Assembly (NCBI GenBank): GCA_016748015.1
Contig: JAAOMT010000570.1
Location: forward strand, 589,253-653,252
Length of the DNA: 64,000 nt
DNA from: Geosiphon pyriformis
Taxonomy: Eukaryota; Glomeromycota; Glomeromycetes; Archaeosporales; Geosiphonaceae
Direction of reading: 5' to 3'
Each line of letters starts with the position of its first letter. Within the stretch, counting starts at the first letter, position 1. Of this stretch, positions 1,120-54,415 are shown in pieces. The position numbers were made by a program, and so were the translations under genes. Below the pieces are notes generated by a model. It made no database searches. It saw only the letters and a list, made by a program, of their open reading frames with translations, and had not been told where the DNA came from.

Positions 1120-4100
1120 TTACACACCTAAAAAAACATGCGGACTACCATCCAAACCAGAGAAAAAGAGACAAGACCTATGATGACCAAAACTAACAGC
1201 AAAAGAGCTATTAACGCCAAGCATCCTCACCACCTTGCCAGACAACAAAAAGTTCATGCAATAAGACAAACCAGAAATCAATGTGTCATTACCAACCAAA
1301 CCTGCTGCTTCTATTTTCATCCTGTACGCAAACCTCACCAACCAGGCCTTTGAGTGATGCAACTCAACCAAATGCCCAACAAAACCAACTACAACACTAA
1401 CAGCCTTCTTTTTACTTTCGAAAACCTCCATAGTCTCTGCACACCAATCTCTTAGCACAAACCTCTTACACAGGACAGAATACAAGCCAATGTCCAAAAA
1501 ACACCAATCAAGAAACTGCAAAACAGCAAAAGATGACAAGCTACAAGATCTAACAAAGAACACCCAGTTAGCAGAAGCAACAGCCAAAATATTCCTCCAA
1601 ATCTCTGTGTCATGAGAACACGTAAAAACATGATCTGACAACTCCACCTCACAATACAGCAAACACAGCACACTAGGGTAACATTTATCATAAAGCTGTT
1701 TCCTCACCACCACAGGCATCTGATGGTGCACAGCCTTCATCAAATAGGTGTGAAGACAAACAGATCTCTGACTAGTAAAACCAGTAAGCATATGCAAATT
1801 AGGATGCCACACCCTAATGATAGCTTCCCAATTAACAGTTTCAGTCAACATGGCAGGAATCACGTCTCGACCAGGACCCACCTTTCACCGAGCACGACAA
1901 ATGGATCTAAACAAATCTTGAACAAAATGATGAGCATTGCCAAACATAGGTGTGTCCTCAGCAACCAAAAAATGCTCACTGACACCAACAGGTAAAGAAA
2001 ATCAAGAGAGAACAGTGTTTCCAGCAGCAGCATCCACTCTAACATTGCCATAAACCCCAGAATGTTCTTTAACCTTGACCCAATGAACAGAAAGATCCTT
2101 GTTATGAACCAAATTAAAAATCCAGTGCCTCTCCAACCAACACAAGGAGTGAAAATCAGGCACAGACAATGACATTTCAGAAATGCATGCATTAATGGCC
2201 ATCTGACTATCAGAATGCACTACAACAGAACAAGAAGAAGAAATGCACTCCAAAGCAAAAGCGATGGTCTGCAGTTTGGCCATAGTAGAAGACAACAGCC
2301 CAAGAACCCTAATGCCAACACTCAAATCAATTGCAGGAAAATAAGCAGCTGCTCCACTGGCTACATCAGCACGACCATAATTCCTAACAGAACCATCCGT
2401 AAAAATCTCAAAAGAACCAGACCAAATCTCATGCAACTCATTCTGAACAACAGAAAACTCCTTGGTATCCAAAACACTCAAACTAGAAGAATAAGCAGAT
2501 TTTACAGAAATGGCCATAGAAGCACCCCCACCACAAAGAAACTCAGACATTACCTTAAACCAATAAGGAGCAGGACCCCTTGGATCCAGCCTTTTCTAGC
2601 ACCAAAAAGTCTCCCAACTCATAACATGTCCTTTTTTGTCAAACAGTCTATTATCAGAAGCCACACCAAACCACTTCAACAAACAAACAGAATCGAAGAA
2701 TAGAGAACCCCCCAGAATAGAAAACACAGGAAAGTGACCAGAACTATGGAATGCATTGGGCAAATTATTGGCCAGAGACAGCTTATTATACAGAAAAATC
2801 TTAACCACACTAGCCAGAAAATTATTTACAGGACTAACACACAATTTAACAGAAAACTGTAAAGGGTTTAAAGGAAACCACCCCAGAACCTGCAAATCAA
2901 GAAACCTATGCTCAAACAAACGTTCAAGAACACCAAAAGAATTGAAAAATGAGATCAAGACAGCCAACTTCTCTTTGAACTGCACCTGCTCAAAAGATTT
3001 TTGGCTGTACAAAGAGGGATGACACAAAGCCTCAGTAGGAAAATCATGAGACAAACCAGCTTTGGACTTAAGACCCTTTCTCAACATCACATCCCATTTG
3101 CAGCATACAGATAATGAAACAAAGCTGAACTGAGTGCAATAGCTGACAATAGACTGCAAAATGGCTAACACCAAATATGAGAACTGCTTATCAGTAATAG
3201 CTTTTCTAAGAATCACATTAGTAAAAAAACGAACATCAGAATGTGTCTTGACCAGACTTGGCTTTAAAAGCCCATTAGTAGATAAAAAGATCCCCAGATA
3301 ACAATGAGTTTTACTCTTTTTAGTGATTAAGATGAGAAGACCACTATTACACAAAGAAACAACTCTAACACCCTGATTGATCAAAATGGCCACAGTCTTT
3401 TCATTGTTAATAGAAATGTCATTAAGAGCAAAAAACCCACTTGCAATGTCCAAAATATTCTGAGTAGCAGTTTGACAGTTTCCAATTCATATTGTATTAT
3501 CAACAAAAGCACTAGCTGCAAAATAAGAAAAGAACCCACTGCCACTTTCAATACAGTCTGACCTCGAAACAAATCTGGAATCCATCTGGTATCCAAAAAA
3601 CTGTTCATGCCTTTTAACCTTACACAGAAGTGGGTCATAAAAAATTCTCTACAAAAGAGGTGAGAAGACTTCACTCTAATCCAACCCATCACACACCACA
3701 TAACTATTTGAAAGCCCAAAGTCTGTCATTAACCTGTTAACTCTATTCTTATGAATGTTACCAAAAAATAACACAAATCTCTTACACATTTTGATACATC
3801 GCAAGCTTGTTCTCAAGTAGTGCCATCCAACTAAGTTGTATGCTTTGGATATATCTTGCAAGACCAACCAAACTTTTCTGTTCTTTTCAAGGGCATCCTT
3901 AATCACAGACCCAATTGCAAACACCAGAGATTGCATAGAAGTACCCTTAAGCACCAAAAAATTATTACCTTGAAAAACACCAAACTTGCTGTATGCCAAA
4001 GAAATACAATCTGACAAAATTTTGGAAAGAATCTTCCTGGCCATCTTGATGAGAGCAATGGATTGAGTGTTTGTAAGAATTCCATCCCAGTCATAAGGTT

Positions 4101-5810
4101 TAGGAATTATGGGAACCCAAGCTCTTTTCCACAAAACAGGCACATCTCCCACAGTCAAACATGAATTCAGCAAACCCAAAAGACACTTCAACACCATGTT
4201 ACTACTATGCTTCCACAACTCATTAGGAATATCAGACAGATCAGCAGCCTTGCCATTAGGTAAATTGTTAACCACCAAAAGCAACTCACTCATATTGATT
4301 GAGCACATCACACCTGAAAAAGCATTATCTCTTACATAATCTAATGGAGCATACTAATGAGCCCAGACATTAAGCACAACTGAAGACACCATTCTCTTCC
4401 TAGTCCAGTCTTCCATAATCTCATTAACACCAAGTTTCACCATACTCGGCTCCAACACCAATTTATCATTAACAACTAAATGATCAAAAACTATTTTGTG
4501 GAAAGGCCAATCCAACATACTTCTAATCATTGCACTCTTATCAGAACAAAATTTTTCCATGCGGCACTCAATGGCCTTCCAAACAGAAGCTTCTTCAGCC
4601 AACTTTGACTCGTACATCTTGGATTTCCTGTATTCCTTCCGAATAATGACAATTGCTTTAAGACATCTGAAGACTTGCCACCAACCTGGATCATATTAGC
4701 AATCATGGCAGCCTTACCACCATCCAGTTTGGCCCAGACATTGATAAGCTGATTGACTCTTTGCAAATTGCCCAGTCCCAGTCCTTTAACAACTTTAGCA
4801 ACTAACAGTTCTAACCTGAAAAACTTAGAAGAAAATTTGTTCTTGGAACACTGAAACTCACTGAACCAATGCCTCAAAAATATCTCATTTGCTGAATCCA
4901 CCAACACTTTTTCTAAAAGTACCCATATGCCATCCACATCAGCATGAGCCAAAGTGTCTGAAAACTCACCAGATACAGCCAAAAGCTTGGTAGAAGTGCA
5001 GTCCTTAAACTGAGACTATTTGGTCTCATCAGCAGCCTTAATGAGAAACTTCCAGCAATCCTTGTTAGTCTGCTTGCACAAGCTATTTAACCAGCTGTCC
5101 AAGAGGCCACCCAAACCAACAGAGACAGAAACCACACAATGATTAGTGTCAAAAAAGTCAGAAACAGAGCTGACCTCATGGCCAGTAATGACAGAAGCCA
5201 AATTTTCACTAACAAAAATGAAATCAATAGTCTTTTTGACCTCCCTAGAATTGGTCCATGTAGAATTACTGACCAAAAGGTGGCCAGCAAACAAATTGAC
5301 CAGACCCAACCCCAAACAGAATTTGAAACTCGCATTTCTTCCAGATTTATTTTCATTGAAATTTCCACCCAAAATAACAAAACAGCTAGAGTTAACAGCC
5401 TTAGCAATGACAAAGTTTACTTCAGAAGCCTGACCAAAACGAGTTCTAAAAGATGCACCTGTATACAAACCAACAACAGACACCAAAAGCTTATCCTTGA
5501 ATAAGAGATGCACCACCATGACATGACCAGGAACCTTCTCAATTTTAGTGACATGACAGACCAAGAAGTTGGCCATAATAATAGCCACCCCAGTACCAAG
5601 AAAACCCTTATCCAAACCCAAAGAGAAAATTCGCACACTGTCAAATTTATTCGCAATTCATGGCCTAGTTAAAGACCTTAACTTTGTCTCTGTAATGATC
5701 GAAATCAAATTTCCAGAATCAAAATACCAGTGCACAACATCCTTTTGTTTAGCAGAAATGTTGATGCCACAAATGTTACATGTAGCCATCTTCCAAACCA
5801 AGTTACTCAT
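1120..5810 (-). pseudogene. LINE ORF2 (endonuclease - reverse transcriptase - RNase H), copy A
   Basis: Start ATG at 5,810-5,808 overlaps the ORF1 stop. In order: an apurinic-type endonuclease at about 5,790-5,040 (ATCNI; LGGNFNEN, where the family has LGGDFNED; TIDFIFVS; DTNH); a reverse transcriptase at about 4,150-3,350 (IPKPYDW, LQDISKAYN); an RNase H at about 2,440-2,030 (FTDGS, HSDSQMA, and KEHSGVYGN followed by VDA); a zinc-finger-like CLLYCEVELSDHVFTC near 1,650; and a conserved tail ending at 1,120. Frame changes near 4,570 and 3,420 and several stops break it. The catalytic FVDD reads FVDN (near 3,505), followed by a stop at a Trp position, so it should be inactive. Confidence 0.9.
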
Positions 5811-7715
5811 TGGGATAAAAAGGCCAAATATGAACCTAAACCAGAACACAAGAGATCTAATCTCACTAGAATTGAACCAAACAAAGTCTCTAAAGCAGAC
5901 ATCTTTGATTCCAAACCACCCACCTTGGAGATAAAGACTTTTGAACCACTTGAACTGAGAACAGTAGCAGACTCACCACTACCTGAAAGGAGAGGATCAG
6001 CCAAAGCCAACACATCATTCAAAGCCATGTCTGAATCCACAGCTGGAGCCGAAGGCACAGAAACAGCCAAAGAAAGAGCACAAGGAAGAGCCACCAATGG
6101 CACCAGTTCAACAAAACTCAATTTTTTAAGAATAACAGAAACTTGATCTGAAAAAATCTCCAAAGAGTGCTTTAATACTGCCAAATGATCATTTAGACCA
6201 ACAACCTAATGACTAGAGGGGCCCACAACGGAAGGCATGCCACCAGAAAACAAACCAAAACTGGAAGGAGAGCTACCAGAAGAGAAGGCACTAGACACTA
6301 CTTAAGCCCAAAATTTGCCACTAAAGGCAGTAGAGCAAGAGATGGGAACGTCTTTTTTGGCATACAATCTTGCCAGCTGAAGATAATTCACACCAAGAGA
6401 AAGTTTTTTTAACAACTCGGAAGATATAAGAGGTAGAACATCAGAGGCATTGCACTCCAGAACCAAATAACCAAAATGCCCACACTTTCCACACTAAACC
6501 AAATCTAACCTAGCCCAAAAAAGACGAACGCCACTGAAAATAGACTCAGTAAGAAAAGCAGATTCCAACTCCTTATTGGATTCAAAACCAATCACAGCAC
6601 AACAAAACCTATTGCCGGTTTCCAATGAATGATTGATGATGCAAGTTTTACCTTCAGCCTTTTCCAAAAGGGTACCAAGATCATGTACAGTTGTTCCCAC
6701 TGACAAAGTAAACAACAGTGCCCTAAACCAATCTCTTGATGCCCAGACATCATGAACCTCCACAGCTTTGGCAACATGTACAGAATCTTTTCTGATCAGG
6801 AATGACCATTTTGATGCCAGCAGATTAGCTTGACTTGATTCGGCAAACTCTACCACAGTCTTTTGCCACATTCCAATCAATTGAATTCTGATTAACTTAA
6901 TTTCACTAAACTCAGTGACTGTGGTGATGATCATATCCTTCAGTGTGTCCATGGGAATCTCTTTGATTACCACAGCCCAATCTGAATGCACTCTCTGTTT
7001 TTTGAGATCAGTGTTTACAACAATCTTATTTTCTTTGGCCAATGACATGGCCATTTCTATGCTCTTTTTTAATGTAAACATTGATCTGATGATCTCTTCA
7101 AATTTTGAAGGGGTAGTGGCCTCCTCAAAACCATTGATTGTTGAGAAAATTTTTCTAATTAACCAAGTCTTAGCCATTGTCAATTCACCCTCTACAGCTA
7201 AGAGACTAATATCCAAAGCAAATGACTTTTTAACTGACACTTTTACAGGAGTCTTGATAATTTTAGGGTCAATCCATTTCTTCTCTAAAGAGATAGGTAA
7301 GCAAAGAGGGAGCACAACTTCATCATCATCCATATGAAAATTAGGAGAGCTAAGCAGAGAACCAAAACCAGCACCAGTATTGACTCATTTTGCCTTGGAT
7401 GTAGTAGCTGCTGAACCCAAAAGAAATCCACCATCTGTTCCAGACATGCTAACATCTTCATCTTCACCAGAAAGACTCTCCACATCAGAATACACACTGC
7501 CACTAGATCCAGCTTTGCTCAAGAATATATCCTTTTCATCACCAGAATGTTTCACATTACTAAGAACAACCTTTTTCTTCTAAAAAAAGGAGCCACCAGT
7601 AGGATCTTGAAAAGCACCCTTAGGAGCCTTCTTCTTAGGTGCAGTGCTACTAGCAGTAGCCTCTATATCCACAAAAAATGGGTTGCTATTAAGTAAAAAA
7701 ATATTGATATAGATT
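5807..7715 (-). pseudogene. LINE ORF1 (RNA-binding protein), copy A
   Basis: The frame runs from about 7,715 (NPFFVDIEATASS) to a TGA at 5,809-5,807, with stops near 7,380 and in the 6,185-6,493 stretch. The middle part at 7,333-6,494 has an RRM-like block: VVIKEIPMDT, then IQLIGMWQKTVVEF, then LASKWSFLIRKDSVHVAKA. A CCHC-type knuckle (CGKCGHFGYLVLEC) lies near 6,440-6,490. LINE ORF1 proteins of this kind bind their own RNA. This ORF1 is clearly distinct from the ORF1 of copies B, D and E (for example FEEATTPSKFEEIIRS against GGASASSKFGGIIWA). No start codon could be fixed, since no ATG precedes the conserved N-terminus in frame. Confidence 0.85.
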
Positions 7716-7790
7716 AAAAAAAATAAAAAACTTTTTTTTCCAGAAAATGCGCTTTTTGGGGATTTGTGGAGGTAAGAGAGAAAGAAGTTA

Positions 7791-8069: not shown

Positions 8070-8247
8070 TTTTTTGGTATTTATATTAATTTTATTATAA
8101 TTTTATTTTATTTTATTTTTTTTATTAACATTTAATGAGTGAAGTCCAAACACTGCCTAGTGCAATACATCATACAAATGATCTAAACTAGGTGTGAATC
8201 ATGCATTATCTACATGTGACCAGCCACTCTGACCAATCAGGACAACA

Positions 8248-11200
8248 CTAAGCACCTATATAAACAAAAACCTCATCTCCTATGCCTGAAAAAAACAAAC
8301 AAGACTTACAGAATCCAAAACCAACACTAATTGCCTCAGCAACACCCAGCAGCCAAGTTACACCAGATGACAGCCCTAAAGAAAGCCCAGAAATTGAGAC
8401 AGGAACTGACCTATCACACGGAATAAGCCTATTTTTTTCCATAAAAGCATGGTGCTTGGCGCAAACCAACCAAATATCTTCTCAAAAAGCCAAGCTAAAC
8501 TCATGCACAAAGGCCACAATGTTCTGACCCGCTATCCTGGAATCCTTGAAGACAGAAACAGACTCACGAAACCAATCCTTGAAAACAAAACCTTTGCATA
8601 GAGCAGTACTAACTGAAATGTCAGATACACAAGTAAACATCAGCTGTGAGACACCTGAGGAAGAATGAGCCAAACTGGATGAGCGTCCAACAACTGAGCA
8701 TGACCATTGGCATCAAATGAACAAGAAAACACATGGTCTGAGACCTCGACATTACCGCAAAACAAACACATCACATTGGGGTATCACTTATCATAAAGCC
8801 GCTTACGTATGGCGACAAGGAGCCAATAGTGCAATGCCTTCATAAAGTAAGTCCAAAAACCAGCAGTCCACTTGCTAGTAAAGCCAGCAGCCATGTAAGA
8901 ATCTAGATGCCAAACCAGCGATGACCTAAACCAATCAATATCTGTACACAGACTATTCACCACCACCCCCATACCACAACTGATTTCCCAATGTGCATGA
9001 TGAACTGACTGAAAAATATCTCGAACAAAATGTCTAGAATTACCAGAAATGGCTGCTCTCCCACTTCTAAGATAGCGTTCATCGACAGAATGGGGCAGAT
9101 GCCAACCAGAGAAAGCTGCAGCTCTGGCCAACTTATTAGCTTGTTCATTGCCTAAAACCCCTAAGTGTCTTTTTACCTTACACCAATTAACTTTTAAATT
9201 CTTATGATGAATAACATTAACAATATGGTGGTGTTCAATCCAACACTGATTCCTAAAATCTGGGCAAACCAATTCCATTTGCAACCTGCAAGCATTCAAA
9301 GCAGCCTGACTGTCCAAGAACAAGTCGACTGAGCAAAAAGAAGGGACGCACTCAAGCGCCAGAGCAATAGCCTGCAGTTCCGTTAAGGTAGAAGACATCA
9401 AACTAGATACCCCTACACCCAAACCCATACTAATGTCCTCAAAGAAAACAGCAGCCCCAGCTTTTATATTAACAGTCCCTAAATCACTTAGAGATCCATC
9501 TGTGTAAACGGAAAAACAACCAACATTAGAATTGAATAAATTGGTGCCAATGACACCAAACTCATGAGACTGAAGAACATCTGAAGAGCCGCGATCAGCC
9601 AAAAGCGTGGAGCAGACAGGAAAAGAAGACATGCTACCAAGAAAACGAACTGACAGCTCAAACCAGACAGGAACTGGACCACGTGGGTCTAACCGCTTCC
9701 ACCGTTTGAAGGTTTTCTACTCAAAAACAGTCCCATTTCGGTCTCATAGCTGGTCTACAAAAGCAATCCCATAACGCTGAAGTGAAGAGACACTCTTAAC
9801 ATAATTTGATTCACCAAGAACAAGAAACATAGGGGTTCCACTCCGATAACAAAAAGCGCTAGTCAGAGAGCCACCCAATAACAAATCACATCCAGAGAAA
9901 ATATGCACCACACCTGCCAGAAAATTGTTTAGAGGATTGACTTTGACACGAACTGGACACTACAACAGATGTAGTGGACACCAGCAGAGGACCTACAGAT
10001 CATGTGACTGGTGAGAAAATAGACACCCCAAAATCCCAACAGAGTTCGTGAAAGAAACGACCGAAGCCAACTTGCTCTCAGCTTGAACTTGCTCAAAAGT
10101 CTTCAAACCATACAGAGAGGAATGATAAATCACATCATTGGAGAAATTACGTGGCAAACCAGACTTAGATCTCAAGCCCTTATGAATCAAAGTGTCCCAC
10201 TTTCTACAAGAACTAATAGGAATGTAACTGAACTGTGTTCTATATCCAATGATAGGAAAGAGGACCACCAAAACCAAATATGAGAGTTGCTTATCAGATA
10301 CTGCCTTTTTTAGGACTAAATTAGAAAAAAACTGGACATTAGAATGTGCCTTAGCCAAACTAGGCTTCGAAAGACCCTCAGTTGACAAATAGATTCCCAA
10401 ATAGTGATGTGATTCCCCCTTCTTGGTGATAGAAATAGATGACCCGCTGATCAGCAAAGAGGAAGCTGTACCATCACAATTAATGAGAATGGCAACAGTC
10501 TTATCATTATTAATCGAGATGTCATTAATATTAAAAAATTTACTAACAACGTTGAAAATGTGTTGTGTGGCACTTTGACTGCTGCCAATTCATATAGTAT
10601 CATCAACAAAGACACCCGCTGCAAAAAATAAAGATACACCAGCCCAAGACTCAGCATGACCACATCCAGAAATAAAATGAGAATTCAATCTATAGCCATA
10701 CCCATCCGCCTGTCTCTTAACTTCATACAAAAAGGGATTATAAAATATGTGCCAGAGAAGTGGTGAGAACACCTCCCCCTGGTCCAAGCTATCATGCACC
10801 ATGTACCTGTCCGTCAAACCAAAATTTGTTATAACTCTGTTAACGCGACTACTGTGGATGCTGCCAAAGAACCTAATGAACCTACTACACATCTTTATCC
10901 TAACTAAACTGTCCTGAAGGTGTTCCCACCCAACAGAATCATAAGCCTTCCGCATGTCTTGCAAAACCAACCAGAGCTCATGATTCTTCTCCAAAGCATC
11001 CTCAATAACTGAATCAATGGCAAAAATAGGAGACTGTGTTGTCATACCCTTTAAAACCAAAAAATTGTCCTCATGCAGAACATCAAAAGTATTACAAGCC
11101 AACAAGATCCTATCTAAAAGAATCTTGGAAAGAATTTTGTGGGCAGTTTCAATCAAGGCAATAGGTTGAGTGTTCATAAGAACCCTTTCCCACTCATATG

Positions 11201-12914
11201 GCTTAGGGATCATTGAGACCCAGGCTTTCTTCCAAGCACTAGGTATTGACTCACAAATCAAACAAGAATTTAAAAGCACCAAAAGCATATTCAAAATTGA
11301 TCTGTTATAGTGTTTCCAGAGCTCATTCGAAATCCCAGAAAGACCAGCAGCCTTGCTCTCAGGCAGACCAGAAACCACACTGAACAACTCATTGAAACCA
11401 ACAAGACACATTATACCAGAAAATGCACCATTGAAAACATACTCCAAAGGCTTGTACTGGTGAGACCAAATATTGGAGATATCTGGCATTACCTTGCACT
11501 TCCTGGTCCAGCCTTCCATGATCTCATCCACCCTAACCTTGACTGAGCTGGGCTCCAAAATCAACTTGTCACCCACAACCAGATAATCCAGTACCACTTT
11601 GCGAAAGGGATGCTCCAAAACACTCCTGATAGTGTGATCCTTGTCTGATTCGAAACTTTCTATTCTTCTATTAATAGCCGCCCTGATATGGGATTCCTCA
11701 GCATGTTTGAATTTCAGCAACTTAGCAGAGTGGTAAGACTTCCTTGCCTTAGCCAGAGCCGAGCAAATCCTGTCAAAACTGGAGCTTGAAAGAAATAAAG
11801 ACTTTACCACCGAAGCACCATTAACATTAAGCTTCTCCCATGTATTCAACAACAACACAAATTCCACACTAGACAACAAACGAGACGCCTTAACCAGCTT
11901 GAATACCAGCAACTCAAGCTTGTGAAACCTAGAAGAACTCTTGGTAAAAACCTCATCATAACCCTTAAACCATTTCTTTTTGAATGTTCCAACTGCTGAA
12001 AGAACCATTACTTTGCATACAATGTCCCATATAGCATCCAAATCTGAAGATTTTGCAGAAGCAGCGAAATTACTCGAGAACATTAGGCCATTGGCCAATG
12101 TAGCATTCTTAAAATTGTTCTACCCTTTCTTGCCAGCATTCCCGAAATCAAACTTCCAACAATTTTTATTAGCCTGCTTACATATCAAATTCAGCTAAGA
12201 GTCAAGCAAGCCACCCAAACCCACAGAAACAGAAACAGCCTTATGATCAGTATTAAAAAAGTCCTCAACCCCAGTCACACCACAATCCACCACAGCATTG
12301 ACCAAGCTCGAAGAGATGAACATATAGTCAATGGTCTTGACAACACTATGAGAGTTACCCCATGTCAGCGTCTTTGCAAGCACACTTCCACCCAAGACAT
12401 TAACCAGACCCAGATCAAAGCACTTTTTGAAACTGGCACTCTTATGAACGTCATCCTCATTGAAGTCGCCACCCAAGACCACAAAAAAAGATTCATTTAC
12501 TGCCTTAGCAATCAAAGAATTGATGTCACCAGCCTGTGAGAATCGGACACTTGAAGAGGCACCAGCATAGAGACCCAAAACAAAAACCGAAAGTTTATTT
12601 TTAAAGAGAAGTTTGATGGAGAGGAGCTGGCCGGGCACCTCAGAAACCTTGAAAATATGCCTTGCCAAAGAAGAATTCATGATGATTAACACCCCAGCAT
12701 CCAAAGAACCAGAATCCAGACCAGAAGTAAAAACCCGAACACCATCAAATTTGTTGGCCAACCACGGACAAACTTTCTCTTTAAGCTTTGACTCAGTGAA
12801 AATAGAAACTAAATTGCCCATATTTCTATGCCAACAAATAACATCATCTTGCTTCACAGGATTGTTCAACCCACGAACATTACATGTAGCAATTTTCTAC
12901 ACCAGACCACTCAT
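8248..12914 (-). pseudogene. LINE ORF2 (endonuclease - reverse transcriptase - RNase H), copy B
   Basis: Start ATG at 12,914-12,912. Endonuclease at about 12,890-12,200 shows ATCNVRGLN, LGGDFNED, TIDYMFIS and NTDHKAVSVSV, so its catalytic residues look intact. Reverse transcriptase at about 11,230-10,580: IPKPYEW, QPIALI, LQDMRKAYDSVGW, QGEVFSPLLW and an intact FVDDT at 10,610-10,596. RNase H at about 9,510-9,100: YTDGS, TELQAI, FLDSQAAL, and NEQANKLA, where the usual last Asp reads Asn. A CX2CX7HX3C finger (CLFCGNVEVSDHVFSC) is near 8,720-8,765. In-frame stops replace Trp (near 12,898, 12,190, 12,135, 10,591, 9,719) and Gln (near 10,000, 9,960). One TGA near 8,780 replaces a Cys/Tyr position. 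Not translatable as one protein. Confidence 0.92.
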
Positions 12915-14757: not shown

Positions 14758-14885
14758 TTAATTTATTGTACTGAATGGTAAAAAAACTTTTTTCGAAAAA
14801 ACTTTAGACTCTTTTTTGGGAATTTTGGATGAAGGAGAGAAAGAAGTTTTTTTTATTTTTATTAATTATAATATTTATTTTAGAT

Positions 14886-19840: not shown

Positions 19841-19881
<41 letters not shown>

Positions 19882-29998: not shown

Positions 29999-30065
<67 letters not shown>

Positions 30066-33445: not shown

Positions 33446-33470
33446 AAAATTATGTTTTTATATATAATTT
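33446..33470. repeat. Target-site duplication, right copy
   Basis: AATTATGTTTTTATATATAAT, close to the sequence at 31,605-31,630 on the other side of the LINE fragment. Confidence 0.5.
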
Positions 33471-35305: not shown

Positions 35306-35329
35306 CAAATATGAATTTTTTTTATTACC

Positions 35330-40110: not shown

Positions 40111-40624
40111 TGTAATAGTTTAAGACTGTTTTATGCTAAAAGCATTTGGCCAGAAACCAAGATAAAAACAAAATTAATTCAGTTAAAACACATGAATATG
40201 AAAATCATATAGACATAAATTATGGGTTTGTTAATATTTTTTTATTTTAGTAATATAAGATATAAAATATAACAAAGAATATATAACAGATATAGATAGA
40301 AAAAATTGATTCTTGTTTATCTGTTTTTCTATCTTCTACAATTACTCTCTTTTATAAATTTTTCTTAGTTCTACAAGACTGTTTTTAATTGTTTTGTTAT
40401 TGTTAATTATTATTTGTTATTTTTGTTATTGCTTTATTTTTTTATATTATTACTAATTATCCTTGTTATTTTATGTTATATTACATTATTGCATTTTGTA
40501 TTGTATTATCTTAAGTTATTATGCATTATTCTATGTTTTTTCATATTATTCTGTATTATTATATTGTGATTATATTTTTTTATAACTTGGATTGGTTTTT
40601 CTACTCAAATAACATTGTTTCAAA
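40111..40624. other. Non-coding, degenerate TTATT-rich repeat
   Basis: Between 40,420 and 40,580 the sequence repeats words such as TTATTNTATGTTATATTA with variation, a decayed minisatellite. No gene is seen. Confidence 0.5.
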
Positions 40625-40699
40625 TTTCCAAAAAAATGTCAAAAAGTTTTTTTTGAAAGAAGTTTTTTACCATTCAGTATAATAAATCCAAACCATTTT

Positions 40700-42529: not shown

Positions 42530-45500
42530 TAAATCTAATTTGGAAATTTTTTACATGCAATATTTGAGGTATCAATGTTTCTGCAAAGCAGAAGAACATT
42601 GTTTAATAACATAAAAATTCAGCTAATATGGTTTTCATTATTACTAAGACAAAATTGAGGTCTAATATTAGGTCATAAATCATGAAAAAGTTTGATAGAA
42701 TTTAGATTTTTACTTCTGGTTTGAATGTAAAATTTTTTGGTACTGGAGTTGTCATAATTATGAACAATTTTTAGCTTGACATGTTTCAAAAGTAAATGAG
42801 ATTCTGGATTAGTTGATTTCTGTATGTTTTTTGTTTAAAAACAAGCTTTTGATCATGATTTTAGGCCTGTATATTGATGTCTCTATTGGTGTGCATTATG
42901 GCCAAGCTTCTAATATTAACTTTATAATCTTTAAAACAGTTAATTCTAGCTTCTTTACAGTTTTAGGTGGTGATTTTAATGAGAATAGATTCAAAAAAAG
43001 TGCAAGTTTCAAGTTCTGCTTGGATTTAAGTCTAGTTAATACTTTTAATAAACATTTGTTGGCCAAAACTTCTACTTGGAGCAATTTTAAGAGTGTTGAA
43101 AAGATGCTGGATTTTATTTTTGTAAGTAAAAACCTGATATCTGCAATCACATGTCATAAAGTTGATTGTATATTAGAATTTTTTGATATGAATTATAAGA
43201 CAATTTTGATCATAGTTAGTTTAGATAGACTTTTGAATATTTGTCTTAACAGCATTTATAAATAGACCAATTAGAACTGGTGGAAGTTCAAGTTGAGAAA
43301 TATGAATGAAGCTCAATAGTTATATTTTAAGGAGCAATCTTTTGCTAAGTTGTTAGAAAAGTCTAAAATATTTGAGGATACAAAAAACAATAATAACTTA
43401 AACATAATATAAATGGTACTGAAAGATATCATAGTACAAGCTGCCAATACAATATTTTCTAAATATTGGTATAGTGAATATGATTGTTCAAAAAACAAAT
43501 AATCTTCAAAATTTTTTAAATTGAAGCTGCTTATTGCAAAAATTGTAAAAGTTTAGAATTTTAGAAATTTTCTGAATTTTAATCATTTTGTTAAGATTTG
43601 GTTGACTATTAATGAAGTTAAGATGTCTAAGATTGTTGACATAGTTTTAAATAGTGTGAGTTTGATGAATTTGGTTAAACATTTGTCAATAATAAAGAAA
43701 AGATATTAGAAATCTAAGTATTATAAGTCTAAAGCATTTAAGAATACAGCTATTAGGAAGATGATTAATTGTTATATGAAAAATTTCTGTTTTGACAAAA
43801 AGCAGATAATAAAGAGCATTTTAAAATATCCATTTTACAAAGTTGTTTTGGATCACTTGGTAATAGGAGATAAGTTGGTGGTTAAGCCTAATGAGGTAAA
43901 GTTTAAGGTAGATAAGATTATGGAAGAATGGACAAGAAAGTAGTTAATGCTTTTAAGAATATCTGATCTTTGTTTTTATTAATACTTGTCTTTAGATTAT
44001 ATTGATAATGATGCTTTTTCTGGTGTAATAAAAGAGATTAATATGGAAGAGTTGTCTTTGGTTGTTAATAATCTGCTGAATAAGAAGACTGCTGGATTGT
44101 TAGAGATACTTAATAAACTTTGGAAACATTGTGATAAAGAGGTGTTGATTTGTTCTTTAAAATTGTTAAATTTGTATTTAATTTTGGGTACAGTTTTAAT
44201 TCCTTGAAAGAGAGCATGAGTTTTAATGATTCCAAAACCTTATAAATAAAATAGTGTTTTAACAAATACTAAGCCTATTATATTGATTAAGACAGCCTAA
44301 AAGATCTTATTTAAGATTTTTTTTGATCAAATATTATTAACTTATAACAAATTTGATGTTCTTTGCAATAATAATTTTTTAATGTTAAAAAGTATGTTAA
44401 CTCAGTTTCTTATTTTTGCCATTAGATTAGTAATTGAAAATGCTTTAGAAAAAAATAAAGAGCTTTAGTTGGTGTTGTAAGACATGCATAAAGCTTATGA
44501 TTCAATAGACTAATATTATTTGAAAGCTAGTTTACACTGCATTAAAATATGTAATTAGTTTATCAAGTTTTTTGGCAATATTCATAAAGATCAGATCAAC
44601 AAAGTTATAACAAATTTTAGACTCTTAAATGGTTATAGAGTACACAATAATTTAGATCAGAGTAAGGTTTTTTCTCTACTCTTTTAGAGAATTTTTTATA
44701 ATTCACTTTTGTGTAAGGTAAAAAGACATGAATACTTGTACAGATATTATATTGATACTAGATTTGTGGTAAAAACTAATAGGGTTGAAACTATTAAAAG
44801 GAGAACTTTTTTTTGGCTGCTGGTGTTTTTGTTAATAACACAATTTGGGTTAGAAGTTGTCAAGCTTTTACACAATACATTTTGAATATTATTAGTAAGT
44901 TTTTTGATATTAATAACATTTTGATTAATAATAATAAAACAGTGGTTATTCTTATTAATTAAGATATTAGAACTGTCTTGTTGTTAATTAATAATTTGCT
45001 GATCTCAATTGCTAAAAGAAGTAAGTCATACAGATACTTGAGCATTTTTTTGTCTATTAAAAGTCTAGTCTGGCTTAGGCTCATATATATGTTAGGTTTT
45101 TTTCTAATGTGATATTAAAAAAGACTATTATAGATAAGCAATTTTTTTATTTGGTTTCAGCTGTTCTGCAGTTTATAGTTAGTTATTAGACACAGTTTAG
45201 TTTTGTTTCATCAGATGTTTGTTGCAAATAAGATATAATAGTTAAAAAAAGTTTTAAGGCCAAAACTGGTTTACTACATAACTTTTCCAGTAAAGTTTTA
45301 CATCATTCATTTCTGTATGATTTGAAATCCTTTGAACAAGTGCAGTCTAAAGGAAAGCTGGCTTTATTGGTTTTTTTTTCAATGTCTATGGCATTTTTGA
45401 ACATCTATTTAAGCATAGGTTTTTGAATTTGCAGGCTCTAGATTGATTCTTTTTGAATTTTTTGCAGTTTCTTGTCAAGTTGTATGTCAGTTCAGTGAAT

Positions 45501-47222
45501 AATTTTTTGGCCAGAATAGTAAAAATTTTTTTGGAAAATGAATTATCTTTAATAAACAATTTGCTTAATGTTTTTTATGGGTTAGGTAGATTTCTAATGT
45601 CTGGTATTCTGGAGCAGTTCTTGTATTATAATTTTGTTCTTTTTTTAAAGTGGTTTAGTATTGTATTTGGTAATAGACTTTTAGACAAAAAAGAGAATGT
45701 AATGGACTAGAAAATGGTTTAATGATGAAAGAAGTTGAATTCAAGAGACTTTGTGTTTCACTGGTTTATATTAATGTCTAAGTTTATAAGCAAGAGTGTT
45801 TCTTTGGAAGTTAAGTTTACTGCTGTTTTTAGATTGTCTATGTTTGATGTCTTGAAATCTGAGATATTTTTTGATATATGTAATAGTTAAATGGGAATTT
45901 GGTTTAATTGTTTTGAGATTTATACAGATGGGTTCTTAAAGAGTGCTGGTTCTGTTGTAATGACAAGTGGAATGGCTGCTTATTTTCCAGTTTTGAACAT
46001 AAAAGTTGAGATTAGAGTGAATAGACTTTTGTTTTCTACTTTGGCTGAATTACAAGCTATTGCTTTGGCTTTAAAATATGTTCTATTTTTATGTGTTGTG
46101 GTTTTGTATTTGGACAGCCAATTTGTAATTGATACTTGTATGTTTGAGACTTTGTTTGTGGTGTCTAATTTTCACAGTTAATGTTAAATTAAAAGATTGT
46201 ATGTAGCCAATTTTATTAAAGATAAAGACATTTTGGTTAAGTGAATGAAAGTTAAAGGATATTTAGGGATTCCAAATAATGTTAGGACTGATGTATTGAT
46301 TGGTAAGACCACTTTCTTTTCTTTTTCTTTGTCTGTTGAAATTCAGAAATAATTTTTGGTTGCTAAAAATACTGTTGTGTCTGGTAATACTTATTATTTT
46401 GTTTACAATCTGTACTAGTTAGTTTGCCATGCTCATTAAAAGACCAGTTCTAGTTATAACATAGTTTTAAGCATTTTAATTAGGGCAATTAATTGGGTTG
46501 TGATTATAAAAATCTAGTAACCTAACTCACATATGCTCTCAAAATTCACTAGTAAAAAATTGGCTAATTTGCATATATATTTAATAAAAACAATACATAA
46601 ATGGCTGCCAATAGCAATTAGAAAGAGATTATATAACAAGAATTATTTTGGTGTGTTGTGTTTGCTGTGCAGTAAAGTAGAGATTTCTGATTATGTTTTT
46701 ACTTATACTGGTAATATTAGTCTCTATAGAAAGGTTTTGGTTAAGACTGCTAAGAGATAAATGTTATTAACTGGTCTTTTTTGCTTGCCAATCTTTGTCA
46801 TTTTGCTTTTGCTTTTAATGTGTTCTTTAGATATTGGGCTGTATACTATAATTTACAAAGATTTTATGTTAAGGAATTGGTATGCTGAAGCTGTTTTGTT
46901 CTTTAAAGAAAAGAGAAAGACTGCTCTGGCTCTTGTTAAATATATTAGATTTATAGTGAAATTGCATTACACTAAGATATGACTTATTAGTTTCAAACAT
47001 AGAATAGACATAAAAAAGACTAATTTGGTCAAGGATACTGGTTTGGTTAAAGATGATAGTTTAGTTTTAGGCTTGTCTTGCTGTGTAGTATTTATGTTAA
47101 CAAATAGAATGATTTATATGCTTGGTATTATGAAATTCTTTGCTATTAGTTTTGATAGGCACAAATTGTGTCATTTTTTCCCCAGTTTAAGTGGTAATAT
47201 ATTTTTTAGCATAGATATATAA
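42526..47222 (+). pseudogene. LINE ORF2 (endonuclease - reverse transcriptase - RNase H), copy D
   Basis: ATG at 42,526-42,528 overlaps the ORF1 stop. Endonuclease at about 42,555-43,265 (TCNI, VLGGDFNEN, LDFIFVS, and MNYK where others have TDHK). Reverse transcriptase at about 44,220-44,860: KPYK, then KAYDSID with nearby stops where copy B has LWLVLQDM and VGW; motif C reads FVNN near 44,833 instead of FVDD. RNase H at about 45,915-46,310 (IYTDG, AELQAI, LDSQF). Finger at about 46,655-46,710 has His-to-Tyr and Cys-to-Tyr changes (CLLCSKVEISDYVFTY). Tail ends at 47,222. After one frameshift near 42,760, one frame runs to the end, broken only by nonsense codons. Confidence 0.88.
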
Positions 47223-47345
47223 TATTGTTTTGACTGGTTCAAATGGCTGATTACATATAGTAAGTACATAAATTGTATTTAGTTTAATCTACTTAGTTTA
47301 GTTCTATGTATTAAATAACAACTAAACTTTACTCATAAAATTTCA

Positions 47346-47774
47346 TAATAATAAAAAAATAAAATAAATAAAATTATATAAATTTTGGCTTAATAAAAAA
47401 TTATAAAATACATAATAAGTTAAATTAAAATAAAATTTTTTTACTATTTTAGAAAAAAGTTTACAATCTTTTTTGTATAAAATAAAAAGATATAAAAGTT
47501 TGTATAAATACAGAATTAATAATAAATTTATAATTAAGACTAATAAAATTTAAATTAAAACTTATTTAATAATTAATATATTTATTAATAATACAATTTA
47601 AATTAAAAATAATTAAACTATTATTTACAATATTTTAAATATTATTAAGAAATTTTTAAAATCAATAATATTTTTATTATAAATTAAAAAATATTAGTAA
47701 TTTATTAATTTTTATTATTAAAAAAAAATCTACAAATATCTTTAAGTTTTTTGTTAATTAAACATATATTTTTT
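47346..47774. other. AT-rich spacer between the tails of copies D and E
   Basis: Extremely AT-rich and without coding signal; probably made of both elements' A/T tails and old target DNA. Confidence 0.55.
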
Positions 47775-47898
47775 TTTTACCTTTAATAAGTGAAGTCCAA
47801 ATATGGCCTAGTACTATACATCACATCAATAATCTAAACTAGGTGTGAATCATGCATTTGCTACATGTGACCAGCCACTCAGACCAATTAAGACAACA

Positions 47899-50800
47899 CT
47901 AAACACCTATATGAACAGAGGCCATATCTCTAATATTTGAAAAAAACAGACAAAATTTACAAAACCCAAAACTAATACCAAATACATTGGCAACACCCAA
48001 TAACCTAATTACATTAGCCAAGAGCACCATAGGAAAACCAGAAACCAAAACAGGAACAAAACCATCATGCAGGATCAAGCCACTTTTTTCCATAATAATC
48101 TAGTGTTTGACATACACCAGCCAAATATCATCCCAAAAAGCAAAACAAAACTCGCACACAAAAGATACAATATTTTGAGCTGCAACTTTAGAGTCCTTAA
48201 AAATAGAAATAGATTCATAATACCAATTGTTGAAAACAAAGCCTTTACACAGAGCTGTACCAACAACAACATTAGCAACACAAATAGACAATAACTGTAA
48301 GACACAAGAAGAAGAGTGAAATAAACCCAAGTGCACTTTCTAAGCAGATGCATGAATTTTTATCAACTGAACATGACCAACAGCATCAAAAGAGCAAGAA
48401 AAAACATGGTTTGAAACCTCAACATTTTCACAGAACAAACACACTACACTGGGATAATACCTATTATAAAGCTGCTTATGTACTGCAACAGAGAGATAAT
48501 GATGCAATGCCTTTATAAAATATGAACAAAAGCAAGCAGTACATGCACTAATAAAACCAGCAGACAAGTGAGAATCAGAATGCCATACTGACAAAGATCT
48601 GGACCAATCAATATTAGCATGTAGACTGTCTATCAAGATCTGAAAACCAGAACCAATTTTCCAACATGTACAGTAAATAGATCAGAAAATATCATGAACA
48701 AAATGCCTAGAATTACTGGAAACTGTCATATTATCAGCTTTAAGAAAATGTTCACTGACCATATGAAGTAGGCATCTATTAGAAAAAGCAGCAGTCCTAA
48801 CAAAAGCATCAACACACTTATTGTCAGAGGCACCAGAGTGGCCTTTAACTTTAATCCAATTAACATTCAAATTCTTGTGACAAATGACATTAGCAATATG
48901 GTAATACTAAATCCAACACCAATTCTTAAAATTTGGACAAGCCAACACAGACTCCAACTTGTATGCATCCAAAGCAGCCTGGCTGTTCAAAAACAAGTCA
49001 ACAGAATGAGAAAAAGGAATACACTCAAGAGCCAAAGCAATAGTCTGCAACTCTACTATTGTAGAAGAAACTAAACCATAGACTCTCACACTCAGACCCA
49101 AATCAATGTCCTCAAAAAAAGCAGCAGTATCAGCCATTATATTAGAAGTTCTTAGACCACTCAGAGATCAATTCATGTACACAGAAAGACAAGTATTAAC
49201 ACATAACAAATTGACTCCAATAACACCAAAATTACAAGACTGAAGGATATTAGAAAAGAAACAATCATTTAAAGATAGAGGACAAGCCAAAGAAGAAGCC
49301 TTACTATCAAGAAAATGAACAGAAAGCTCAAACCAAATGGGAACAAAACCACAAGGGTCCAATTGCTTCCACTGCTTAAAGATTGTCCAACCAAAAACAA
49401 CACCATGCTTGTTACACAGCTGGTTCATAAAAGCGATCCCATAATGTTGAAGAAAAAAAACATACTTAAAATAATTAGGCTTACTAAGAACAAGAGACAT
49501 AAAAGTACCACCTTGAAAACAAAATGCACTGGCCTGAGAGCTGCCCAAGAGCAAATTACATCCAGAAAAAATGCAGACCATACCAGCCAAAAAATTGTCT
49601 GAGGGGTTGATTCTAACATAAGCTGGAAATTGTAGAGGGTGGCAAAGACACCAGCTAAGAACCTGAAAATCATGAGATCTATGAGAAAATAACTGACCCA
49701 AAATACTCAATGAATTCACAAAAAAAACAAGGAAAGCCAATTTGCTTTCAGTCTGAATTTGTTCAAAAGTCTTTAAACCATACAAAGAAGGATGATGGAT
49801 TGTATCAGTAGAGAAATCAAGTGGAAAACCAAACTTAGACTTTAAGCTCTTGTGAATTATAGCATTCCATTTACTACAAATGCTGACAAAAACAAAATTG
49901 AATTGAGTTCTGTAACTGACAATAGAAAAAAAGACTGCTGACACCAAATATGTAAACTGTTTATCTGAGATTGCTTTTTTTAAAACAAGATTGACAAAAA
50001 ACCAAACATTTGAATGCACTTTAGCCAAGTTAGGTTTCGACAGACTCTTAGAAGATAAAAAAATACCCAAATAATGATAAGATTCCCCTTTTTTGGTAAC
50101 AAAAATAGGTGAGCCACTAACAGTCAGATAAGGATTCGAAATTTGGCAGTTGATGGGAATGACCACAGTCTTGTTATTATTTATAGAAATGTTATTAAAC
50201 CTAAAAAATTCACTAGCAACATTGAGGATGTATTATGTAGTAGTCTGATTACTATAAACCCAAATTGTATCATTGACAAAAGTACCAGCAGCAAAAAATA
50301 ACATCAACCCAGACTTGGAAACAAAATAAGAATTTAATCTGTAACCATATACACCCTTCTGCCTTTTGATCTTACATAAAAGCAAATCATAGAATATGCA
50401 CCAAAGAAGAGGTAAGAAAACTTTCCCTTGGTCCAACTCATTATGAACATGATACCCATCAGTCAAGCCAAAGTGTGTCATCACTTTGTTAATATGACTA
50501 TTGTAAATACTACCAAAAAATCTAATAAATCTGTTACATATCTTGATTCTAACCAAACTCCTTCTAAAATGTTCTCAACCAACAGAGTCATAGGTCTTAT
50601 GTATGTTCTACAAAACCAGCTACAGTTCTCAGTTTTTCTCTAAGGCATCTTCAACCACTGAGCTGATGGCAAAAATGGGAGATTGCATTATTATATCTTT
50701 CAAAACAGAGAAATTGTCCCTATATAAAACATCATAAGTGCTGCAAGCTGAAAAAATTCTATCTGAAAGAATCTTGGAAAGAATTTTATGAGCTGTTTCA

Positions 50801-52563
50801 ATCAAAGCAATAAAATAAGTATTTATAAAAACACCTTCCTATTTATATGGCTTAAGAATCATTGAAACCCAAGCTTCCTTCCAAGACCCAGGCACTGATT
50901 TACAAGTCAAACACAGATTTAAGAACACCAAAAGCATATCCAAGACTGAATTGTCACAGTGTTTTCACAATTCATTAGAGATGCCAAAAAAACCAGCTGC
51001 TTTTTCATCAGACAGATTCGAGACTACAGCAAACAATTTATCAGAACCAATCAGACACATTACATCGGAAAATACACTATTGAAAACATAATTTAATGGT
51101 TGATATTGGCAAATCCAATCATCAAAGATATTGGGCACCACTCTGTGTTTCCTAGTTTAATTTTCCATAATCTTATCTACCTTAGACTTAACTAAATCAG
51201 GCTTCAAGACCAATTCATCATCTACAACTAAATGATCCAACACTATCTTGTAAAAAGAATGCTCCAACATATTTTTAATGGTATAACTCTTATCCAATTC
51301 AAAACTTTCTATTCTATTGGTAATGGTCTGCTTGATGTGAGATTCTTCAGCACACTTGAATTCCAGCAACTTGGAAGAATAGTAAAACTTCTTTACTTTT
51401 GCCAACCCAGAACAAATAGCATTAAAAGTAGAACCTAAAAGAAAAAGAAATCTTACTTCTGCTGTACCATTAGAGTCAAGCCTGTCCCATGTACCCAGCA
51501 ATGAAGCAAAATCCTTACTTGAAACCAAATGAAAAGCTTTTACCAGCCTGGACACTAGCAACTCAAGCTTATAAAGCCTAAAAGACACCTTGGTAAAAAC
51601 ATTGTCATAATCTTTGAATCATTTTTTTTTGAATGTCCTATTGGCTGAAAAAACCATGACTCTACAAACAATGTCCCACATTACATTCAGATCTGAAAAT
51701 CTCTCAGCTGCCACAAATGCATTTGAAAACATAGCAGCATTAGCAGCTGTGATATCTCTAAACTTGCACCACTTCTTCTTATTGACACTTATAATGTCAA
51801 ACTTCCAATAATCTTTGTTTGTCTGTTTGCACAGCAAGAATAGCTGAACATTCAACAAACCATCCAGACCCACAGAAACAGAAATGGCTATATGATCAGT
51901 ATTAAAATAATCCTTAACACTAGCCACATTGTGACCCATTATTACATTAACCAAATTTGAGGAAATGAACATATAATCAATCATCTTAGCAACTCCACGA
52001 GAATTGCACCATATTAGTGTCTTAGCAAACGAGCTTCTGGCCAAAGAGTTGACCAAACCCAAATCAAAACACTTCCTGAAACTGGCACATTTATGAGATT
52101 TATCTTCATTGAAGTCACCACCAAAAATGATGAAAGAAAATTCATTTACAGCCTTTGCAATAAAAGAATTAATGTCACCAGTCTGAAAGAACTGAACTAC
52201 CAAAGAAGCATCAGCATACAGCCCCAAAATTGACACAGAAAATTTATTTTTGAAAAACAACTTGACAGAAAAGATCTAATCAGACATCTCAGAAACTTTG
52301 CACACATGATGAGCCAAAGAACTATTTATAATAATAGCAATGCCTAAATCCAAGTAACCAGAATCCACACCAAAAGTGAAGACACAAACATCATCAAACT
52401 TGTTCATGATTTATGGACAGATCTTATCTTTCAATTTAGTCTTAGTAACAATGGAAATCAAATTGTTCATTTTCCTATACCAATGAATTATATCACTCTG
52501 CTTCACAGGATTGTTTATCTCTCTAATGTTGCAAGTGGCAACATTCCAGATCTTATCATTCAT
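47899..52563 (-). pseudogene. LINE ORF2 (endonuclease - reverse transcriptase - RNase H), copy E
   Basis: ATG at 52,563-52,561 (MNDKIWNVATCNI). Endonuclease at about 52,545-51,830 (FGGDFNED, MIDYMFIS, NTDHIAISVSV). Reverse transcriptase at about 50,900-50,240, with motif C FVNDT (near 50,275) in place of FVDD. The connection region at 50,166-49,168 is well kept. RNase H at about 49,180-48,780 starts YMN-stop-S where copy B has YTDGS. The finger CLFCENVEVSDHVFSC near 48,400-48,450 is intact. All preserved segments from 52,260 to 47,899 lie in one reading frame, so damage is by point nonsense and missense changes only. Inactive. Confidence 0.9.
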
Positions 52564-54415
52564 TGAGAAAGATGAGAGGCAGAAACTGAACCAGCATTGT
52601 CCATTTTAGCCAAAAGACTTATAACTGTGATTGAAAAATTATTTAATGTCTCTTCTATTTTTAAGACAATTGAAGGATCATAAACTACTGCTTCCACAAC
52701 AGTCTTACCACTAGTGATCACACCTGAATTTTCACTCATCACTATATCTGCTTCCTGATTCTGTAATGAAGAGATCACCAACAGCTGGCATCCAGGGCTA
52801 AGCTGAGAAACCATTGACCCAGGTGTATCCAACCTTTTAGCCAGCTTATCAACACACTTTATGAGACTGGTAAGACTGCACTCAAAAGTAGCAAACCTAT
52901 CATTCAATTTCAAAGACACCAGTGGGGTAAACTTTATCTCCGAAGAGAAACCAGTATTCAACACAACATTTCGAATGGAAGGGGGAGGGAAAGAGGACTC
53001 ATCAGCAATTTATGTTCATAAGACATCATCAAAAGAAACAGGACGAGCAACTGAAGCTGAGCATTTAGCATAAATAGTGGCCAGCCTGCTTTTATTAAAG
53101 TCTAAAAAAGTTTTCTATAATAAAACACCAGAAGAAACATTCTTCTTCCCACTAACATAACAAAGCCAAAAATGTATGGCCTAATTTCTTATACCCAGTA
53201 CACTTAGTCAGAACAAGACAAGACCAGTACAGATTGGCCTCTTTTAGAACAGACATGGTCTTTATGACAACATCCAATGACTTAGCAAAATCAAAACAAA
53301 CAGCAGCACACCTGGCTCGGACATAAAAAACCAGGTAATAGTCAATGACACAAGTTTTCTCACTCACTGAAGCAACATAATCCCAAATATCATGTATGTT
53401 GGTCCCCATTGGCAAAGTGTATAACAAAGCTTTGTAGATGTCTTTCACATCCCATAATTTTTTGTTTACATCAGATCTAGCAACATGCATTGCATCTTTT
53501 CTGATTAGAATAGACCATTTTGCTGTGACCAAATCAGCATAATTAACTTGTTCAAATTCAACCACTGCTTTTTGTCATAGCTCTACCAATTGTATTTTAA
53601 TTAACTTAATTATTTCGAACTCAGATAGTGCAGCTCACACAGCCTCAGTTGATGTACCAATTAGAATTTCCTTCAACATTACAGTTCGATCTAAACACTC
53701 AGATAATTTTTTGAGATTAATGTTTACCAAAATCTTTGCTTCTTTAGCTTTTTTAGAAGCCTGTGCCAAGCTTGATTCAGAAATAAATATTGCTCTGATG
53801 ATCCCAGCAAATTTTAAAGAGGTAGAAGCCTCCCCAAAACCATTGATTTTTGAAAACAACTTTCTGATTACTTAAAGCTTTTCTTGAGAAGATTTCTCAA
53901 CCACTTTGTCCAACTCAATATTCAAAGCAAAGAATTTGCAAACAGAAATGTTGACCAGATTTTTTAAAGATGGAGGGAGTTCCAATAAAGCATCCAAAAA
54001 AACATCATCTTCATCATCATTTAATGAAAAATTAATTTTACCCAATGGCTTGTCTAATACCTTTTTGGTTTTGACTTTCAAACCAGTAGGTGTTTGATTA
54101 GAATCTCCTCTAGCAAGAGCACTATTTTTACTATAATCAAAACTGGTCTTTTCTATTAGACATTCCTCCTCCATATCAATACTATTAGATTCAGTGGTGT
54201 TACCAGTCTCTGAACCCCATGAGCGACTATTTTAAACCTTAGAACCAACATTTTTACCACCAGAACTATTTTCTAAAACACTATCTCTCCTTTTTTTCCT
54301 TAAAAGAACAGATCTGAAGCCATTACTAGAACCAGAAACTTTAGCAGTCTTCTTTATAACAGCAATACTACAGCCAATGGTGGCCTCGTAGTTAAGAATA
54401 AAGAGTTTAGATTTA
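52560..54415 (-). pseudogene. LINE ORF1 (RNA-binding protein), copy E
   Basis: Starts with NYEATIGCSIAVIKK near 54,390 and ends with TGA at 52,562-52,560. It has an acidic segment (MEEECLIEKTSFDYS), KLFSKINGFGEASTSLKFAG, an RRM-like block (MLKEILIGTSTEA, AKWSILIRKDAMHVARS) at about 53,690-53,480, and a knuckle remnant near 53,180 in which one Cys reads Tyr (CTGYKKLGHTF). A stop near 53,875, another near 53,577, and a frameshift between 53,150 and 52,965 break it. It keeps Gln (SPGCQLL) where copies B and D have a stop. Confidence 0.87.

Follow-up and report, generated by a model that had tools for sequence, protein, structure and literature searches.

Cytosine-to-thymine decay of repeated LINE copies beside spared genes in Geosiphon pyriformis

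The window analyzed here, a 64,000-nucleotide stretch of the Geosiphon pyriformis genome, contained five LINE copies (A to E) and two spared neighbors. Copy A (1120..7333, minus strand) had open reading frames and a CpG observed/expected ratio (o/e) of 0.15, and it resembled copies B, D, and E when the window was compared with itself. Copy B (approximately 8100..14890, minus strand; CpG o/e, 0.34) carried RVT_1 (within 10590–12098) and RNase_H (within 8784–9632) domains and had 27 near-full-length matches in the genome at 86–92%. The old, broken pieces of copy C (31607..36186, no strand assigned; GC, 0.20; CpG o/e, 0.09), examined by their own composition only, resembled copy E on the plus strand (80% over 849 bases) and copy D on the opposite strand in self-comparison. 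Copy D (40615..47633, plus strand; CpG o/e, 0.01), recognized by self-comparison, was strongly decayed, with its best genomic relative at 79%, and copy E (47118..54535, minus strand; CpG o/e, 0.08) had best relatives at 79–83%. Comparisons with close relatives covered copies B, D, and E. The spared neighbors were a HECT ubiquitin ligase gene (55957..63999, minus strand; HECT, UBA, and UBM domains; GC, 0.42; CpG o/e, 0.86), a 3-kb piece of which matched the genome once, and a stretch with an ABC-transporter domain (24500..27500, minus strand; ABC_tran at 26458–27036; CpG o/e, 0.92). Intergenic DNA of the window was very AT-rich, with a GC content of 0.10–0.12 at, for example, 15.5–16.6 kb and 36.2–39.2 kb.

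The original prediction held that the LINE reading frames had been killed by C>T and G>A changes with almost no indels, and it listed 11 stops in copy B at Trp or Gln positions. Called against seven close genomic copies, copy B had 13 premature in-frame stops, located in ORF1 (13864, 13732, 13453, and 13147), at 12899, and in ORF2 (12197, 12122, 10592, 9995, 9962, 9746, 9719, and 8786). All 13 derived from the inferred family codon by C>T and/or G>A, at six Trp, five Gln, and two Arg sites. The earlier list had missed the stop at 9746, the stop near 12,190 proved to lie at a Gln rather than a Trp site, and the TGA near 8,780, previously regarded as a misfit, fell at an inferred Arg (CGA) site and hence fits; the TGA at 8642 was common to the family. 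Under our gap rule, a 22-nt deletion was the only private gap run of copy B among eight aligned copies, private insertion runs being absent; the other seven had one to six runs each. The near absence of indels therefore applied to copy B but not to copy D, in which the best single frame contained 42 stops over 3 kb (C>T or G>A could explain 22 of them), consistent with frame breaks; the stops expected around 44,465–44,515 were present at 44,466, 44,478, and 44,511. Copy E had nine stops over the 3 kb examined, and for the eight that lay opposite TGG, CAG, or CAA in relatives, C>T or G>A is a sufficient explanation. Since the genetic code makes every sense-to-stop transition C>T or G>A, stops alone cannot show bias, and the stop-codon pattern was set aside as proof in favor of whole-alignment counts.

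For these counts, 20 of the 27 near-full-length relatives were aligned with copy B, and changes were polarized in 13 copies by star-tree EM, since CpG columns vary in several copies and are therefore masked when singletons alone are counted (C>T or G>A, 370/494; transversions at C:G, 10). C:G>T:A accounted for 3,356 of 3,561 changes (94%) in the 13 copies, for 311 of 335 in a second reverse-transcriptase family, and for 256 changes against 10 others in copy B alone, indicating that the predicted mode of death was real and stronger than first described. The transition-to-transversion count was 498:37 between copy E and its relative L045, and the ratio ranged from 27 to 86 in five LINE pairs at approximately 9% divergence.

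The stops had been read as changes at CpA, the context preferred in canonical repeat-induced point mutation (RIP), but counting transitions by dinucleotide did not support this reading. Clade 1 C>T rates were 0.333 at CpG (978/2,940 site-copies changed), 0.090 at CpC, 0.072 at CpA, and 0.065 at CpT, and clade 2 behaved alike. CpG was thus changed approximately four times more than the other sites, which were similar to one another, and a CpA preference was absent in both clades; canonical CpA RIP is not supported. Cytosines after T or C were changed approximately twice as often as those after A or G. The slightly higher raw rate of C>T (0.130) than of G>A (0.109) in clade 1 was due to sequence context, with both falling within 2% of expectation after trinucleotide correction. 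Non-CpG changes in the 13 copies were independent of one another, showing neither strand runs (combined z, 0.01) nor clustering (z, −0.18). An apparent coordination between strands (z, 4.9) and a spacing more even than expected (z, −4.8) arose because both cytosines of one CpG had been counted as independent, and they were rejected after both disappeared on non-CpG sites alone.

CpG depletion, expected from methylation-linked deamination, was seen in transposons and absent in genes, with a CpG o/e of 0.86–1.00 in four gene stretches (HECT gene, 0.86; three others, 0.92–1.00) against 0.01–0.34 in the five LINE copies. The one non-transposon gene duplicate examined, which may be old or exempt, was an inverted pair of approximately 1.1 kb at approximately 90% identity, 32 kb apart, and was spared: it showed 50 transitions and 19 transversions, with equal rates at CpG (9/87) and other C:G sites (41/346) and hence no CpG excess. 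Duplicated transposon DNA, by comparison, had 635 non-CpG C>T changes against 24 transversions (p = 3e-11). Non-CpG C>T was also compared inside a single duplicated segment, and there it was approximately twice as common in transposon DNA as in short AT-rich strips, where the excess was lower but not zero (8 C>T against 3 transversions). The tie between the C>T excess and repeats is firmly supported.

The genome was searched for methyltransferase genes, a RID/Masc1-type enzyme having been proposed as a target. It encoded a DNMT1-type enzyme (C96) with RFD, BAH, and catalytic domains, and two enzymes (C355 and C327) with BAH (below its cut-off in C327), weak RFD, and catalytic domain matches, labeled DIM-2-type from these matches and a chain ranking. 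In that ranking, a piece of C355 placed two chains, presumably Neurospora DIM-2, above DNMT1. A further compact methyltransferase (C318) had no BAH match in the exons scanned, and its motif VI read ENV, which RID/Masc1 enzymes are not known to carry.

Of the two causes originally offered, repeat-induced mutation and deamination of methylated cytosine, the second fits the repeat-tied C>T excess better, and methylation-directed cytosine deamination over time is probably the cause of the transposon decay. Transposon copies would carry cytosine methylation, dense at CpG and lower elsewhere, favoring C after a pyrimidine, likely written in all contexts by the two DIM-2-type enzymes and at CpG by the DNMT1-type enzyme. 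On either strand, and each independently, the methylated cytosines would gradually deaminate to thymine, so that insertions would lose C:G pairs, CpG first, and frames would die as Trp, Gln, and Arg codons turned into stops, before transversions or indels mattered much. Since C>T reached approximately 50 times the transversions even outside CpG, passive deamination would need dense non-CpG methylation. This need, the C>T excess in the short strips, the slightly different proportions of C>T to other changes among copies (p = 0.025 and 0.047), and the spread of the C>T-to-transversion ratio (24 to 228 over 17 pairs, with an overdispersed fit and no clean clock) speak against this explanation. 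In Microbotryum, a CpG-preferring transposon C>T excess was ascribed to methylation and deamination, and a Masc2/DNMT1-class enzyme is present, as in our case (Amselem 2015, PMC4352252); the signature described there is CpG only, whereas here all contexts were affected, with a 5' pyrimidine favored and DIM-2-type enzymes present too. Rhizophagus irregularis, a probably related host, is described as having high CG methylation at most transposon loci and a detected DNMT1-related protein; that account mentions methylation at CG only, describes no mutational consequence, and cites RIP as undetected in Gigaspora margarita (PMC8647823).

A RIP-like active mutator, recognizing repeats and enzymatically converting their cytosines round after round in a broad context that leans toward CpG and not CpA, is a possibility that we regard with some doubt. 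The lack of strand runs and of a CpA preference argues against it, as may the ENV motif of C318. The high transition excess of the five LINE pairs would suit it, as would an rDNA copy lying apart from all assembled arrays, in which C>T or G>A made up 10 of the 11 changes that fell at strongly conserved positions, and the compact form of C318, RID/Masc1 enzymes being described as BAH-less (PMC7862722). An early-burst term also improved the likelihood (LRT, 9.9), in an overdispersed fit (chi2, 98 on 15 df) in which one pair, L028/L036, joins copies from different subclades and parent-element divergence may contribute to the older pairs. RIP of Neurospora, in its canonical form a premeiotic process of the sexual cycle that strikes any long duplication, genes among them, likewise changes C:G to T:A in repeats, whichever the strand, and kills frames by stops, but an 802-bp repeat suffices there and cross progeny are described as carrying 0 to 108 mutations (PMC12543289), whereas here the 1.1-kb gene duplicate was spared and changes per copy were nearly even (variance/mean, 1.9 and 0.6).

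An active mitotic mutator steered by the DIM-2-type enzymes, acting as genome defense in the order CpG, C after pyrimidine, and C after purine, is a more speculative and rather unlikely reading. In Zymoseptoria tritici, DIM-2-dependent mitotic C>T is described as making up >95% of mutations, in methylated repeats and with no need for sex, and >98% of it as lying at CpA, the CpG rate not being high (PMC8016269). Our data share the C>T dominance in repeats and a DIM-2-type gene, but CpG was changed most and CpA was not special, so the pattern of mainly CpA change with CpG spared is absent.

A genome-wide mutation bias toward AT, in which transposons are nothing special, would agree with the very low intergenic GC of the window and with the fall of the transition:transversion ratio to approximately 3–5 between LINE subfamilies at 70–79% identity, but it appears improbable given the contrast between the gene duplicate and duplicated transposon DNA and the CpG retained by genes, including the HECT gene that stands beside the depleted LINE copies. 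APOBEC-like deamination of single-stranded DNA during retrotransposition, or light damage, could account for the preference for C after T or C but is highly improbable, as the strands were equal after context correction and free of runs, CpG was preferred, and CC>TT showed no excess (50 against 48.9 expected and 24 against 26.8 expected).

Collectively, the decay looks more like slow methylation burn-out than a classical fungal repeat-mutation system. A literature search of limited scope listed no paper on transposon hypermutation by C>T in arbuscular mycorrhizal fungi, for which DNA methylation and RNAi are named as means of transposon control (PMC8647823). If the decay is general, mycorrhizal transposons would also be destroyed by mutation, with a spectrum overlooked by CpA-based RIP indices, and transposon ages from raw divergence would be too old, because young divergence is nearly all C>T. 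If the mitotic mutator were real, it would be a defense with an undescribed context in an arbuscular mycorrhizal lineage often called asexual, having escaped notice because RIP surveys seek CpA-type shifts.

Two minor observations concern the genome at large. No type-I FAS domain was found in it, the positive control being detected, which gives some support to a host in Glomeromycotina. The rDNA copy, itself mutated and so not used to place the host, was matched by the AML1 and AML2 primer patterns at one mismatch apiece, while AM1 found no site even with up to three mismatches allowed.

The 124.7-Mb genome assembly (406 contigs), in which the window lies at C315:589253-653252, yielded at least 43 matches to a 3-kb piece of copy B, a LINE copy on the minus strand at window positions 8100-14890 (40 best candidates scored), and the matches listed included, besides copy B, at least 27 near-full-length relatives at 86-92% identity. 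The best 20 of the 27 were taken whole for alignment, and seven of these 20 matched copy B over 6.4-6.8 kb. With the search settings used, the other 13 (L028-L040, with L039 truncated by a contig end) matched window 8100-14890 in ORF2 and at the 3' end but not in ORF1, so that their ORF1 regions are of another kind or have diverged far more; parts of elements may have been exchanged. Distances among copies of one clade were roughly equal over the shared 4.8 kb and were thus suited to polarised counting, which covered eight clade 1 and five clade 2 copies, with the most likely base per column taken as ancestral and with 12 of the 4,863 clade 1 columns and 5 of the 4,866 clade 2 columns left out. 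The remaining 8 of 21 copies belong to other or mixed subclades and entered pairwise counts instead.

The original prediction, prompted by stops at Trp and Gln positions that interrupt the frames of the LINE copies, was that these had decayed by RIP-like C-to-T and G-to-A change, and counts by type in the alignment bore out the dominance of such changes: 2,113 C:G-to-T:A versus 121 other changes in clade 1, 1,243 versus 84 in clade 2, and 256 versus 10 in copy B alone. Five LINE pairs gave transition-to-transversion counts of 363:13, 405:8, 430:5, 477:12 and 507:19, a pair crossing subclades (L028/L036) gave 443:48, and E-family pairs of about 82% identity gave, for example, 498:37 and 450:32. 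The ratio fell to about 3-5 between subfamilies at 70-79% identity (for example 523:161 for copy B versus copy E); mutation of the parent elements seems to be of a more ordinary kind, and C-to-T change saturates. In five copies of another reverse-transcriptase family, 311 of 335 private changes were C:G-to-T:A.

The part of the prediction that stressed CpA did not hold, and the excess lay at CpG. Changed site-copies in clade 1 numbered 978 of 2,940 at CpG, 397 of 4,408 at CpC, 416 of 5,780 at CpA and 306 of 4,738 at CpT, and the clade 2 pattern agreed. At non-CpG sites of clade 1 the 5' base also had an effect (0.111 after T, 0.086 after C, 0.047 after A and after G). This context matches neither Neurospora RIP, with its CpA, nor a signature of CpG alone. 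Raw clade 1 rates were 0.130 for C-to-T and 0.109 for G-to-A, both within 2% of expectation after correction for trinucleotide context. Among non-CpG changes in 13 copies, neither strand runs (combined z 0.01) nor clustering (combined z -0.18) was detected, and CC-to-TT counts were at expectation. Changes per copy had variance-to-mean ratios of 1.9 and 0.6, and the C-to-T share of all changes differed slightly between copies (p 0.025 and 0.047).

CpG observed/expected was low in the LINE copies (B 0.34, A 0.15, C 0.09, E 0.08, D 0.01) and about 0.2 in each of five further retroelement copies (L003, L004, L005, L007, L008); that family keeps open frames of 340-546 aa with several percent of cytosines changed. 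Values were 0.86 for the HECT ubiquitin ligase gene (55957-63999), 0.92 for the ABC-transporter-domain stretch (24500-27500), 1.04 and 0.90 for two unannotated window stretches, and 1.00 and 0.92 for two methyltransferase loci; the very AT-rich window stretches 15500-16600 and 36200-39200 (GC 0.12 and 0.10) gave 0.60 and 0.12. A 20-kb duplicated segment, with an assembly gap in each copy, lies on contigs C223 and C205; C223:95600-115400 and C205:16100-35900 (L051-L054) are about 94-95% identical and could be a duplicated segment or two haplotypes. Two of its stretches gave transitions to transversions of 412:5, where LINE covers at least 5.4 of 6.9 kb, and 364:19, where a LINE piece and an LTR-type integrase were found in the frames read. 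AT-rich strips beside the elements, which are short and hence a weak control, carried non-CpG changes at 8 of 146 sites versus 635 of 5,482 elsewhere in the segment (p 0.018); transversions numbered 3 over 1,474 bases of strip and 24 over the other 15,530.

A predicted methyltransferase gene on contig C318 (C318:788280-789372) is duplicated in inverted orientation some 32 kb from it (C318:820713-821336), at about 90% identity. The pair differs by 50 transitions and 19 transversions, and CpG sites changed as often (9 of 87) as the remaining C:G sites (41 of 346). Non-CpG C-to-T change was about 12-fold commoner in duplicated transposon DNA than in this pair (odds against transversions; p 3e-11), a control of one pair that is older by its transversions and to which selection may contribute. 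SSU rRNA had a single full-length match in the assembly (C320:1044781-1046597), apparently a decayed copy: among the 280 strongly conserved positions in the counted portion of the Rfam alignment, 11 differ, 10 of them by C-to-T or G-to-A, and changes of this kind account for 36 of 98 differences at weakly conserved positions. rDNA may thus also be a target, and the process may act on repeated or silenced DNA in general instead of on transposons in particular.

Methylation-linked cytosine deamination is the probable cause of the decay. CpG sites of affected copies would be densely methylated and all other contexts more weakly, and deamination of the methylated cytosines would then account for the context, the strand symmetry, the independence of changes, the similar dose and the spared genes. 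An active RIP-like mutator seems rather unlikely: the changes do not favour CpA, strand runs are absent, the dose is similar from copy to copy and the C318 gene duplicate is spared. In Zymoseptoria, a functional dim2 raises mitotic C-to-T mutation in methylated repeats at CpA (PMC8016269), whereas CpG changed most in the present copies.

Candidate enzymes for such methylation came from a methyltransferase domain search, which returned 12 exon matches at seven places. The predicted C96 gene has RFD, BAH and catalytic domains, and a 328-residue piece of it matches DNMT1 chains only. Weak RFD and catalytic matches were found in C355, with BAH, and in C327, with BAH below the cut-off. The top two chains for the C355 piece are DNA (cytosine-5-)-methyltransferase, which we take to be Neurospora DIM-2, and DNMT1 comes next. 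The C346 gene is DNMT2-like, and that on C307 carries a similar motif. The compact C318 enzyme, present in two copies (L009, L013), has chain 3g7u and DNMT1 as nearest solved structures, and a scan of its exons gave no match to BAH in those covered. A description of RID/Masc1 enzymes has them without BAH (PMC7862722), and DIM-2 is listed as active in all CpN contexts (PMC13297926).

Absence of type-I fatty acid synthase is a mark of arbuscular mycorrhizal fungi, and the family PF08354 had no match in the assembly in a search that was positive in Corynebacterium. Together with the size and AT-richness of the assembly, this fits a host in Glomeromycotina. The literature searched held no report of such C-to-T transposon decay in these fungi. 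Decay with CpA, CpT or CpG signatures has been compared across 10 Ascomycota and Basidiomycota genomes (PMC4352252). One source describes CG methylation of transposons in Rhizophagus irregularis and cites RIP as undetected in Gigaspora margarita (PMC8647823), a species taken in by a kingdom-wide RIP survey (PMC12543289).

Elsewhere in the window, at 16668-17598, about 464 bases are duplicated in tandem with 99% identity.
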